A DNA stretch of 5,713 nt from positions 1 through 5,713 of the forward strand of contig JARFQM010000109.1 of the NCBI GenBank assembly GCA_029287755.1. Reading direction: 5' to 3'. The translations under genes and the position numbers were made by a program. Positions 2,355 through 5,713 of this stretch are shown here, one piece after another (position 1 is the first letter of the stretch; each line of letters begins with the position of its first letter). The DNA is from Desulfofustis sp. Its GTDB lineage: Bacteria > Desulfobacterota > Desulfobulbia > Desulfobulbales > Desulfocapsaceae. The notes beneath the pieces are model-generated. The model worked only from the letters and a program-made list of their open reading frames with translations, ran no database searches and was not told where the DNA came from.

Positions 2355-2387
2355 ATGAAAGATCAACATACGGAAGTATCCGGATGA
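2355..2387 (+). other. 10-codon mini-ORF overlapping the nqrF start
   Basis: ATG at 2355 opens a frame encoding [10 protein letters not shown], which ends at TGA 2385-2387. That stop overlaps the nqrF ATG in a 4-nt ATGA junction. No good ribosome binding site precedes it (only TTGAG at 2344-2348), so it may be chance. If translated it could couple ribosomes from nqrE to nqrF across the only gap in the operon. No homology is expected for so short a peptide. Confidence 0.15.
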
Positions 2388-3604
2388 ATGAAATAATTTA
2401 CGGGGTATCCATATTTCTGGCCATCCAGTTCGTCCTGGTCGCCCTGATTGTGGGAACCAAGAAGACGCTGCTGCCGGGCGGCGACCTGTCCATTATCGTC
2501 AACGACGACAAGGAGTTGAAGGCCGAGCCGGGCGGTAAACTGCTGACCACCCTGGCCGACCAGGGAATTTTTCTGTCCTCCGCCTGCGGCGGCGGCGGCA
2601 GCTGCGCCCAGTGCCGCTGTATCGTCACCGAGGGCGGCGGCTCCATTCTGCCCACCGAGGAATCGGCGATCACCCGGCGCGAGGCCCGGGAGGGATACCG
2701 ACTCGCCTGTCAGGTGCCGGTGAAGCGGAGCATGAAGATCGAAGTGCCGCCGGAGATGCTCGAAACCAGAAAGTGGGAGTGCGTTGTCGCCTCGAACGAA
2801 AATGTCGCCACCTTCATCAAGGAACTGGTGCTCCAGCTGCCGGAGGGCGATTACGTCGATTTCAAGGCCGGCGGCTACATTCAGATCGAGGTACCGCCCC
2901 ACGAACTGGATTATCAGAGTTTCGACATCGACAACCGGTTTCTCGGCGACTGGCGGAAGTTCAGAATGTTCCAGTATAAATCACACGTCTACGTCCCCGT
3001 GACCAGGGCCTACTCGATGGCCAACTATCCCGAGGAGCGAGGCATTATCAAGCTCAACGTCCGCATCGCCAGCCCTCCCCCCGGTCAGCCGGCTGCTCCT
3101 CCGGGACAGGCCTCATCCTATATTTTCAACCTCAAGGAGGGTGACAGAGTCACTATTTCAGGCCCCTTCGGCGATTTTTTCATCCAGGAAAATGACCGAG
3201 AGATGGTGTACATAGGCGGAGGCGCCGGCATGGCGCCGCTGCGCAGCCATATCTTCGATTTATTCAAGCGCAAGAAGACCAAGCGCAAAGTCTCATACTG
3301 GTACGGCGGCCGTTCCATGCTTGAGGTCTTTTATCAGGATGAGTTCGAGGAACTGGCCAGAGAACACGACAATTTCACCTTCAACCTAGCCCTCAGCGCG
3401 CCCCTTCCCGAAGACAATTGGGAGGGGTACACCGGGTTCATCCACCTTGTGCTCTACGACAACTACCTCAAGGATCACCCGGCGCCCGAGGACATCGATT
3501 ACTATGTCTGCGGTCCGCCGATGATGCTCGAATCGGTGCAGGAGATGCTCGACAATCTCGGTGTAGAGCCGGAAAATATCCACTTTGACGATTTTGGCGG
3601 CTAA
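2384..3604 (+). CDS. nqrF: Na+-NQR subunit F, NADH dehydrogenase (FAD, 2Fe-2S)
   Basis: 406 residues, the usual size. It oxidises NADH in the cytoplasm and feeds electrons into the sodium pump. Domains in order: one membrane helix (about 4-24); a ferredoxin-type 2Fe-2S domain (about 33-125) with ligands Cys68, Cys74, Cys77 and Cys109; an FAD domain with RAYSMANYP (208-216) and the family's Pro-rich loop [12 protein letters not shown] (231-242) before GPFGDFF (260-266); and an NAD-binding domain with [12 protein letters not shown] (278-289) and CGPP (376-379). It ends in the family tail DDFGG. All catalytic and ligand residues expected are present. The ATG at 2384 has a modest GGAAG at 2372-2376. 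It lies 43 nt after nqrE, the only real gap within nqrB-F; a 10-codon ORF in that gap ends on the nqrF start. Confidence 0.98.
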
Positions 3605-3679: not shown

Positions 3680-3868
3680 ATGATGCTTTTTCTTTCGACC
3701 CTGGGCCTTACCATCGTACTTTTCATAGGGGCGGCCCTGGTTTTTAATTTCTCTAAACAAAAAACGGGCCGTTCCCGTCCCTCCGGGTCCCCGGGCTGTC
3801 AGCAGCGCGGTTCGCATCTGGGATGCAGTTGCAGTGCTGCGGTGCAAACCACGATTTCCCGCCTTTAA
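3680..3868 (+). CDS. nqrM: Probable NqrM-like (DUF539) Na+-NQR maturation protein
   Basis: 62 residues. A strong AAGGAG at 3669-3674 sits five bases before the ATG, and a second ATG follows at once at 3683. One hydrophobic helix (about 2-23) leads into a basic stretch (KQKTGRSR) and a small Gly/Ser/Cys tail with Cys40, Cys49 and Cys51, that is SGSPGC followed after eight residues by CSC. NqrM proteins have this plan: an N-terminal helix, then a short Cys-rich tail that includes a CxC. They are needed to install the NqrD/E iron centre. Position directly after nqrF supports the call. It is atypical in lacking the usual GSCGG wording and the final Pro-Cys pair, and in having only three Cys. It could be a diverged NqrM, a decayed copy, or an unrelated small membrane protein. 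Confidence 0.6.
   Translation: MMLFLSTLGLTIVLFIGAALVFNFSKQKTGRSRPSGSPGCQQRGSHLGCSCSAAVQTTISRL
3755..3778 (-). terminator. Minus-strand intrinsic-terminator-like hairpin inside the nqrM-like ORF
   Basis: Read on the minus strand, ACGGG-AACGG-CCCGT (3778 down to 3764) forms a 5-bp GC-rich stem followed at once by TTTTTTGTTT (3764 down to 3755). That is the form of a Rho-independent terminator for a transcript coming leftward from the 3780-4100 region. On the plus strand no T-run follows the stem, so it would not stop nqr transcription. No minus-strand gene with a ribosome binding site was found, so it would end a non-coding or antisense RNA, or be chance. Confidence 0.3.
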
Positions 3869-4056: not shown

Positions 4057-4082
4057 CATCTCCGACCCCGTTTGACAGTTAC

Positions 4083-4097
4083 CTAAATTTTATTTAG
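4083..4097. promoter_or_regulatory. Dyad CTAAA-N5-TTTAG, candidate operator over the -10 region
   Basis: A 15-bp AT-rich perfect dyad overlaps the -10 position of the TTGACA promoter. That is the size and base composition of Lrp/AsnC sites, although it does not match the E. coli Lrp consensus at the outer CAG/CTG-like bases. Its centre is about 41.5 bp from that of the dyad at 4041-4056, close to four helical turns. In the reconstructed uninterrupted sequence the arms lengthen to six bases (CCTAAA-N5-TTTAGG). Confidence 0.35.
4091..4096 (+). repeat. Left copy of 6-bp direct repeat TATTTA (possible target-site duplication)
   Basis: TATTTA directly abuts the left end (GTTTCC) of the 4097-4238 element. 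The same six bases abut its right end at 4239-4244, and the match extends to seven bases (TATTTAG) if the element's first G is counted. Direct repeats at both ends of an inverted-repeat-bounded segment are the mark of transposition. In AT-rich DNA a 6-bp chance match is possible. Confidence 0.5.
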
Positions 4098-4238
4098 TTT
4101 CCATCAGGAAACGTGAGATTTTGTTTCGAGATCGAGGCGTGCGAGAAATTTTACCACAGGCATATAGTTAATATTCCGAGGATAAAATTTTGAGCACAAC
4201 GAAGATATTGGACAAAAGGTCCGTTTCCGGATGGAAAC
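4097..4238. mobile_element. 142-bp palindromic MITE-like element with 17-bp terminal inverted repeats
   Basis: Left end GTTTCCATCAGGAAACG (4097-4113) and right end CGTTTCCGGATGGAAAC (4222-4238) are inverted copies, 16/17 identical. Each end is itself a palindrome, GTTTCC-N4-GGAAAC. Moving inward, GA and TTTTGT (within 4115-4124) and GTGC (4139-4142) find partners on the right at near-equal depth. The 8-bp pair AAATTTTA (4146-4153) and TAAAATTT (4183-4190) is centred at 4168, against 4167.5 for the ends. The whole segment could fold as one long imperfect hairpin. It codes for nothing and is flanked by TATTTA direct repeats. This fits a non-autonomous miniature element moved by a transposase encoded elsewhere. 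The rival view is a pair of regulatory palindromes around a promoter. No family is recognised. Confidence 0.55.
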
Positions 4239-4244
4239 TATTTA
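4239..4244 (+). repeat. Right copy of 6-bp direct repeat TATTTA (possible target-site duplication)
   Basis: Directly follows the right end (GGAAAC) of the 4097-4238 element and matches 4091-4096 exactly. The next base, G4245, extends the match to seven. Joining the left flank to the sequence after this copy restores the palindrome CCTAAATTTTATTTAGG. Confidence 0.5.
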
Positions 4245-4281
4245 GGATTCTCGATAATCCAACCGACTCACTGAGGCCGCC

Positions 4282-4725
4282 ATGCTCATCGATCAGCTCA
4301 ATCTTGATATCATAAGGCATCTCAAAGAAGGACGGAAATCGTTCAAAAAAATCGCCGATGCCCTCGACGTTACTGAAAATACCGTCCGTTCCCGCGTCAA
4401 CAAACTCTGTGCAGACGGCATCCTCGACTTCACCGGCAATATCGACCCCGAAAGCCTGAAAGGGCACCGCCTTCTCTATCTCGGAGTAAAACTCACCGAT
4501 CTCGACATTTCCAGAAAAGGAGATGACTTCAGCCGGTTGCCGGGAGTCCTGTCGGCAGCGATTGTCACCGGACGCTACGATCTCATCCTGCAGGTCCTGC
4601 TCAACGACAATTTCAATTTGCTCGAGTTCATCACCGAGCATGTGGCAAAAATAGAAGGAGTTCAGACGGTTGAGAGCTTCATCGTCTACAAGGGATACAA
4701 TTTGAAAGTGCCCTACATCCTCTAG
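4282..4725 (+). CDS. Lrp/AsnC-family transcriptional regulator
   Basis: 147 residues, a normal size for a one-copy Lrp/AsnC protein. The N-terminal winged helix-turn-helix covers about 1-50, opening with the family's LDQLNxDII-type start and reading FKKIADALDVTENTVRSRVNKLCADGI (21-47). A RAM (effector-binding, oligomerising) domain covers about 64-146 and contains LPGV, then TGRYDLILQVLL (96-107), and the late segment TVESFIVYKGYNLK (129-142). Such proteins sense small molecules, often amino acids, and bind AT-rich dyads. The effector here cannot be told. ATG 4282 is the first ATG after an in-frame stop at 4255-4257; its ribosome site (TGAGG, 4272-4276) is weak. The MITE-like element ends 43 nt upstream, so expression may be altered. 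Targets could be its own gene, the DUF2848 gene downstream or nqr. It stands apart from the nqr genes by over 400 nt. Confidence 0.93.
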   Translation: MLIDQLNLDIIRHLKEGRKSFKKIADALDVTENTVRSRVNKLCADGILDFTGNIDPESLKGHRLLYLGVKLTDLDISRKGDDFSRLPGVLSAAIVTGRYDLILQVLLNDNFNLLEFITEHVAKIEGVQTVESFIVYKGYNLKVPYIL

Positions 4726-5068: not shown

Positions 5069-5713
5069 ATGTATACTTTTCAAGTAATCGTCGAACTTTT
5101 GAACGCCACCCAGATTCCCCGGTCGCTGGTTATGGACGGCTGTGTGGCCGCAGGGTATACCGGTCGTGATCAAGCATCTGTGCACCAACATATTGAGGAG
5201 TTGAAAAAACTGGGTGTGGCGGCCCCATACGAAATCCCCGCCTTTTATTGGATCAGTCCGCATCGACTGACTCAGCAGGCGGAGATTCAGGTTGTTGGTG
5301 AACAAACCAGTCCAGAAGTGGAGTTTTTCTTGGCAGCCGGAAACGATGGCAGTCTATATATCACAATTGCCAGTGATCACACCGACCGGGAACTTGAAGC
5401 CGTGTCCGTCAGTAAATCAAAACAGGTCTGCGACACAGTGCTGGGCGACACGTTCTGGTCAGTGGACGATGTGGTCAATCACTGGAACGAGATAGAGATA
5501 TCAGCCAAGGTATATCATCAGGGCAGGTGGATTGACTATCAAGCTGGCATGCTGGGACAGATCCTGCACTACGCTGACCTGCTGGAACGCATCAAAAAAG
5601 ACGATCCCGGCAAGACTGCACCCGGACTGCTCAGCGGCACCCTCCCGATTATCGGGGGCGAGGCACTGTATGCCTCAGCCTGTGAGATAACCATGCGGGA
5701 TCCGGTTCTGAAA
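5069..5713 (+). CDS. DUF2848-family protein, N-terminal part (cut by window end)
   Basis: An open frame of 215 codons runs off the window, close to the full usual length of about 220-230 residues. The ATG at 5069 has AGGAG at 5059-5063 five bases upstream. Family-like stretches in order are AGYTGRDQASVHQHIEELKKLGV (28-50), the VPxFY-type EIPAFYW (55-61), a TSPEVEF segment (80-86), SDHTDRELE (102-110), SKSKQVC (115-121), a Trp-containing VVNHWNEI (135-142), LSGTLPIIGG (188-197) and the late EITMRDPVLK (206-215). I recognise this as DUF2848; its function is not established. A distant likeness to the fumarylacetoacetate-hydrolase fold is only a suspicion. It is separated from the Lrp-type gene by 343 nt and may or may not be its target. 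Codon use is less strictly G/C-ending than in nqr. Confidence 0.87.
   Translation, partial: MYTFQVIVELLNATQIPRSLVMDGCVAAGYTGRDQASVHQHIEELKKLGVAAPYEIPAFYWISPHRLTQQAEIQVVGEQTSPEVEFFLAAGNDGSLYITIASDHTDRELEAVSVSKSKQVCDTVLGDTFWSVDDVVNHWNEIEISAKVYHQGRWIDYQAGMLGQILHYADLLERIKKDDPGKTAPGLLSGTLPIIGGEALYASACEITMRDPVLK

Follow-up and report, generated by a model that had tools for sequence, protein, structure and literature searches.

What is the 142-bp nested hairpin that lies between the nqr genes and the gene of an AsnC/Lrp-family regulator in Desulfofustis sp., and which machinery could have moved it? The window, by which we mean the whole 5,713-nt stretch of contig JARFQM010000109.1 that was analysed, carries the element at 4097-4238 with 17-bp inverted ends, as read from the sequence (Table 1). 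The geometry described in an earlier note on this DNA is borne out: the terminal copies GTTTCCATCAGGAAACG and CGTTTCCGGATGGAAAC are reverse complementary with A4106/G4229 as the sole mismatch, TATTTA is present on both flanks, and the 8-bp inner pair, AAATTTTA (4146-4153) and TAAAATTT (4183-4190), is centred at 4168, the centre of the ends being 4167.5. A repeat finder reports arms of 28 nt (4086-4113 and 4222-4249) that are 82% complementary, and an inverted pair of 17 bp with at most one mismatch and at most 300 bp apart occurs in none of 100 shuffled windows, the shuffle being a crude one of two-base blocks. The entire element is predicted to form one hairpin, with folding energies of −62.3 kcal/mol for the plus strand as RNA (z −8.9) and −28.9 kcal/mol for the minus strand as DNA (z −7.8), and none of 200 shuffles folds as well in either case. 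Only mechanical ORFs overlap the element, none is contained within it, and it holds no transposase gene. Rfam gives no match to the element up to E=1 and one sub-threshold match elsewhere in the window, five exact patterns have no match in IMG/VR, phage searches found none, and a near search of its surroundings in plasmids found none; one plasmid record is matched weakly and partially by both the element and a core.

Table 1. Features of the element and its gene setting in the window.
Feature	Position	Strand	Basis
NqrF-like protein, last recognised upstream nqr gene	2384..3604	+	Pfam PF00111, PF00970, PF00175; name from neighbouring Nqr subunits
TTGACA, −35-like hexamer preceding the asnC/lrp gene	4072..4077	+	also in L124, L125, L128; putative promoter role
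Target-site duplication TATTTA, left copy (TANNTA class)	4091..4096	.	sequence; 6-bp duplication statistics
TAGTTT at −10 position	4095..4100	+	target TA plus element GTTT; putative function
Left terminal inverted repeat, palindromic GTTTCC-N4-GGAAAC	4097..4113	+	sequence, repeat finder; end type as in ISNCY of L304, L306
Conserved structured core, 109 bp, covariance-model positions 1-109	4114..4222	+	cmsearch, alignment, pair counts
Right terminal inverted repeat	4222..4238	-	outer 16 bp match ISNCY ends of L304, L306 at 15/16
Target-site duplication TATTTA, right copy	4239..4244	.	one copy fits the empty-site length in L124
AsnC/Lrp-family regulator, downstream of the element	4282..4725	+	Pfam PF01037, PF13412

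Comparison of the gap between the nqr genes and the regulator in relatives, a check that the earlier note had proposed, reveals an empty site. The regulator of the window is 95% identical to that of G001, a close Desulfofustis relative, 93% to that of G070 and 89% to that of G071. In G001 (locus L124) nqrF, the small ORF and asnC follow one another in the same order, without the element; the distance from TTGACA to the ATG is 64 bp, compared with 65 bp in the window once the element and one TATTTA are subtracted. G070, G071 and G074 likewise have no copy at this site, their gaps being too diverged for clean empty sites. The small ORF of the window (62 aa, 3680-3868, plus strand), which follows nqrF, begins with a hydrophobic stretch, has a Cys-containing tail and finds no match in Pfam; by alignment of the gaps, sequence related to this region occupies the corresponding position in G001, G070, G071 and G074, and we take the ORF to resemble the Nqr maturation factor NqrM. 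A DUF2848 protein begins further downstream (5069-5713, plus strand).

Further copies, which the earlier note had suggested looking for, are abundant in relatives. Near full-length copies are 90% identical in G070 and 85-86% identical in G001, and 76 of 93 genomes of the bacterial family have a DNA match to the element at E≤1e-3, many of them to the core alone; copy numbers come from the relatives' genomes, many of them fragmented MAGs in which several contigs end in these repeats, and exclude 10 loci outside the phylum that resemble chance terminators. The note had named a single copy conserved at its site as the result that would speak against an insertion, and the empty site in G001 and the many copies elsewhere contradict it. 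The same two observations make it extremely improbable that the element is a regulatory region fixed at the nqr/asnC locus, a reading to which its place between the nqr genes and the regulator, over promoter-like sequence, and a very weak core-model match in the G070 gap, on the opposite strand, would lend themselves. That match (L125, 2194-2297; 12.9 bits, E 0.53) lies nearer nqrF and could be a chance match or a decayed copy. Together, the many copies in relatives, the empty orthologous site in the closest relative and a statistically backed 6-bp duplication establish that the window element is a MITE, as the note had proposed.

The insertion appears to interrupt promoter-like sequence in front of the asnC/lrp gene and to take the place of its −10 region. 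TTGACA and TAGTTT are separated by a 17-bp spacer, and G001, which has no element, shows TAAATT at the position of TAGTTT. A consensus promoter scan reports no promoter at the TTGACA/TAGTTT site, and its promoter role is therefore one that we infer. The element would put a long hairpin into the asnC/lrp leader.

We call the ends of the window element type A, and collected 69 non-redundant type A inverted pairs with any centre from the fetched loci. An exact 6-bp direct repeat, mostly TANNTA, flanks 28 of them (shuffled mean 1.93, maximum 7 in 2000 shuffles), while exact repeats of 3, 4 and 5 bp number one, zero and zero, and a 7-bp match occurs in two. The other 41 pairs are without an exact 6-bp repeat, a number of them differing by one base. 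Some type A ends occur as solo 16-bp hairpins, for example in L084, L085, L106, L110 and L117, often with TANNTA-like flanks that are mutually unlike; ordinary genes lie near those in L106, L110 and L117 (Dus, a glycosyltransferase, DctP, RNase PH and a transporter).

Palindromic ends, inverted pairs and solo hairpins are also what REPINs and REP sequences display, in solo and paired forms alike, so that the element might be seen as a REPIN whose mover is a REP-associated Y1 transposase (RAYT). This is very improbable given the 6-bp target duplications and the existence of DDE-type insertion sequences with the identical end type; in these target duplications and DDE-type partners the present family differs from REPINs.

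Indeed, intact transposons with ends of this type, which the earlier note had proposed to look for, exist in the same bacterial family as ISNCY insertion sequences (NF033593) of about 1.7 kb. The note could assign the ends to no family; we now propose that they are ISNCY ends. Type A ends are found on both sides of ISNCY elements in L304 (1673 bp), L306 (1683 bp), L308 (1686 bp; ends recognised only with a looser pattern) and L305, L324 and L333 (1698 bp each), the last three being among nine equal-scoring ISNCY copies in the single-contig genome G033. Exact 6-bp TANNTA repeats flank all six ISNCY elements for which both ends were seen, and elements of the ISDol1 group of ISNCY make duplications of 6-7 bp. 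In the survey of the 93 family genomes, 20 match NF033593 at E≤1e-20, 7 of them above its cut-off; when 14 ISNCY loci were rechecked by end pattern, both ends were found in 5, one or a misplaced end in 7 and none in 2. The right end of the window element agrees with the ends of L304 and L306 in 15 of 16 bases. Since the ends and the TANNTA duplication are common to the element and to ISNCY, the ISNCY transposase is the likely mover of the window element. No ISNCY match at E≤1e-20 was found in the fragmented genomes of G001 and G070, the nearest relatives that hold many type A copies.

Other candidate partners were considered alongside ISNCY, the families surveyed being IS1182, IS1634 and ISNCY. 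IS1634 matches in 33 of the 93 genomes, and no type A end was found among the inverted pairs of 30 of its loci, several of them lacking plausible ends; this exclusion is weak, as the script behind it overlooks the type A ends of the G033 ISNCY copies by taking another reading frame. Wider type A pairs in G042 and G044 were rejected as partners: those in L108, L111, L118 and L119 span or abut ordinary genes, encoding an MFS transporter, a cNMP-binding protein, a protein of no family and a sensor kinase. Further wide type A pairs occur in L104 (818 bp) and in L123.

Had the element simply arisen by deletion from one ISNCY insertion sequence, with an ordinary centre, its ends and duplication would agree with ISNCY as they do. 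However, beyond the 16-bp end the best alignment of the element to three ISNCY elements reaches E 0.11, no match of the core model to L304, L305, L306 or L308 falls below E 0.08, and the same centre is found with other ends, which together render such an origin quite improbable. ISNCY elements share with the MITE the 16-bp ends and the TANNTA duplication, and differ in their length of about 1.7 kb, in encoding a transposase and in that no core was found in them.

The centre of the element is itself conserved. The window core scores 121.5 bits in cmsearch, the window itself being among the 61 sequences of the model, and the 61 aligned cores have a mean column identity of 76%. In the consensus fold, 17 of 24 stem pairs show changes on both sides, double-changed cells in the stems number 131 versus 37.3 in shuffles and further pair types 47 versus 32.3, counts in which related sequences may exceed shuffles even without structure; when the structure is slid along the alignment, the paired fraction drops to 35-59%. 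Unpaired columns equal paired ones in average conservation (0.883 versus 0.855), loop II (columns 27, 28, 96 and 97) being the most conserved of them (0.967), but helix 3 (0.915) exceeds loop I (0.844). The consensus energy is −13.3 kcal/mol on one strand versus −3.8 kcal/mol on the other, and by these predictions the fold belongs to one strand. There is a modest excess of G-T over A-C among pairs that are at least 70% Watson-Crick (40 versus 20) and a small one among pairs predicted on both strands (15 versus 11).

Within the phylum the core is widespread. The covariance model finds it in 79 of 395 Desulfobacterota genomes, which is a lower bound because the filters were strict and nine candidates were scored per genome, and two further Desulfobacterota MAGs have 112 and 92 matches at E≤0.01, some of them weak; in 10 genomes outside the phylum it finds none. 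Relative to genes as given by mechanical ORFs, 30 of 164 copies lie in the same sense, 32 antisense, 27 between convergent and 30 between divergent genes, with 15 inside an ORF and 30 at an edge, and 19 of the 164 lie more than 400 bp from an ORF. With no sense bias in the tandem settings (30 versus 32), the core is unlikely to be maintained by a function for host genes. Type A ends also surround folded centres that differ inside, in L001, L007, L009, L013, L039, L046 and L051, and likewise a different inner part in L034 and L045; some type A elements with a different inner part are longer and have a second inner hairpin.

Could the pairing of the core reflect something other than selection? 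Template-switch correction is known to act on long, nearly perfect hairpins, and switching at the hairpin during replication might have corrected one arm, which would be compatible with the missing gene-sense bias. However, conserved mismatched internal loops remain in the core, though such correction should remove them, and the consensus fold is far better on one strand than on the other; we regard template switching as an unlikely source of the pairing.

The same core is found between other ends. Of 192 core copies fetched, 164 have distinct context, 153 of these have enough flank and 130, with no duplicates among them, have one end type on both sides; the remainder of the 153 comprises 3 with mixed ends and 20 with one or both ends unassigned. 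The 130 typed cores fall into type A (66), type C (GAGCCTYTTGCAAAA, 30), type B (GGGTACCTTGAAAAAT-like, 21) and type E (GAGGCTGTCCGAGAA, 13), proportions that differ from natural frequencies as the set was grown from searches with the window element. Typing allowed at most 4 mismatches in 16 to consensus strings of our own choosing, and weak ends may be misfiled because of this limit. The typed elements are 138-143 bp long in 123 of the 130. Mean core identity is 0.743 within type A and 0.727, 0.747 and 0.698 between A and B, C and E, respectively; for the ends the corresponding means are 0.73 and 0.44, 0.45 and 0.51.

The end types differ further in their target duplications. Type A cores have an exact 6-bp duplication in 24 of 66 (shuffled mean 2.1) and a 4-bp one in none; type B cores have a 4-bp duplication in 14 of 21 (shuffled mean 1.1) and a 6-bp one in none; and type C cores have a 4-bp duplication in 19 of 30 (shuffled mean 0.75) and a 5-bp one in 3 of 30 (0.1). 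CTAG stands on both sides of 9 of the 13 type E cores versus a shuffled mean of 7.0, and because it is nearly constant there, a duplication is indistinguishable from a fixed part of the end. Types B and C, whose ends are the most alike of all pairs of types (0.59 identity), may be one class.

For type E the autonomous partner is an IS1182 element of 1.84 kb with a 502-aa transposase (NF033551, E=1.3e-114), which has 7 copies of equal score in G042, a single-contig genome, and there shares one CTAG with an adjoining core-bearing MITE. The IS1182 element shares its ends and CTAG flank with type E, and it is without the core: compared with core elements, no core similarity above chance was found beyond the ends. 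Its ends are not those of the window element, and mobilisation of the window copy by IS1182, which would entail GAGGCTGTCC ends and CTAG, is contradicted by the type A ends and TATTTA found instead. Contig G042:C1 (6.75 Mb) contains 284 matches to IS1182-type ends with at most 2 mismatches versus 6 with the reversed pattern; these and the 7 IS1182 copies perhaps represent a recent burst.

A partner for type C was sought in 20 regions of G092, G032 and G034, three of which, L338, L340 and L351, have wider pairs. A 1402-bp stretch of L340 that lies between type C ends (1138-2539) contains a short, broken transposase-like ORF that matches PF05598 (E 3e-7) and, far below the cut-off, the IS5 model NF033581 (E 0.0013), and its flanks do not match; possibly this is a decayed type C partner, a candidate that we offer as a lead only. 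L338 was rejected, its ORF encoding a SEC-C protein. In L189 (G032:C10:9555-10456) one copy of the core seems to have been the target of a type C element with the same core, CCGA standing on both sides. The left end of a core copy in L171 (G070:C194:3423-4340) seems to be B-like with 1 mismatch and its right end A-like with 4 mismatches, and this copy is possibly a recombinant.

One core with several ends could arise by exchange of ends or by descent. In the latter case the end types would be old, separate MITE lineages that split once, their ends having drifted with related transposases and without exchange. All four end types are about 16 bp long, begin with G and are 43-59% identical to one another over 16 bp, the IS1182 protein matches the ISNCY_1 model weakly (E 5e-16), and type A as a single clade is not rejected (p-AU 0.29), all of which would suit separate descent. 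On the other hand, the core is barely less similar between types than within type A, and a parsimony reconstruction on the tree of the 130 cores, which is built on 109 columns and is noisy, calls for at least 12 end-type changes (30 label shuffles: mean 57.6, minimum 52; possible minimum 3), of which only three are certain because these columns do not reject type A monophyly. We regard separate lineages as a genuine possibility, if the less probable one; even so, the transposase must really have changed at least once, because the duplication is 6 bp in type A versus 4 bp in types B and C.

We prefer, and as a whole consider quite probable, an explanation in which the window MITE has a mover of ISNCY type and contains a separate core cassette that has changed its transposase partners. 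The core is a cassette in its own right, strongly base-paired, found across Desulfobacterota and bearing other ends elsewhere. In the window, an ISNCY transposase acting in trans would bind the ends and move the element through 6-bp staggered insertion; more generally, DDE transposases of different families would act in trans on ends of loosely similar pattern, and through changes of its ends the cassette would have swapped partners while the core persisted throughout. The core would be maintained since its fold is of use to the element, most probably by forming a hairpin or cruciform while the element transposes; a role in the element's own mobility is the most likely one, the alternative being an RNA of its own. 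A bolder form of this proposal, which we put forward tentatively and think rather doubtful, is that the core is a parasite of transposases that stems from no single insertion sequence and has repeatedly gained ends for different DDE families (6-bp ISNCY, CTAG-flanked IS1182 and the 4-bp types), its conserved loops and one-strand fold being active either as a hairpin to which host or transposase proteins are drawn or as a small structured RNA.

Comparable elements have been described. Chunjie, a MITE of Geobacter uraniireducens that a review describes as 178-235 bp long, resembles the window family in being short and non-coding, in its inverted ends, direct repeats and many intergenic copies, and in its (former) deltaproteobacterial host (PMC10969869). 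The window family has a conserved centre and variable ends. Correia and ERIC elements, covered by the same review, are likewise short mobile repeats able to alter nearby expression (PMC10969869). A consortium containing a Desulfofustis has also been described (PMC9296519). As far as our searches by topic reach, we found no report of this core or MITE family in the literature.

In ordinary MITEs the ends are kept for the transposase and the centre decays, whereas here the centre is retained and its stems show paired changes, and the ends vary and agree with insertion sequences from different families. The window is an example of an insertion that would rebuild the promoter-like sequence of an Lrp/AsnC regulator beside nqr genes. 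The core family is large and phylum-wide, so that partner switching and selection on the core are testable. If confirmed, selection could act on the folded core as one part of a non-autonomous element, and such an element could outlive its transposase by switching partners.
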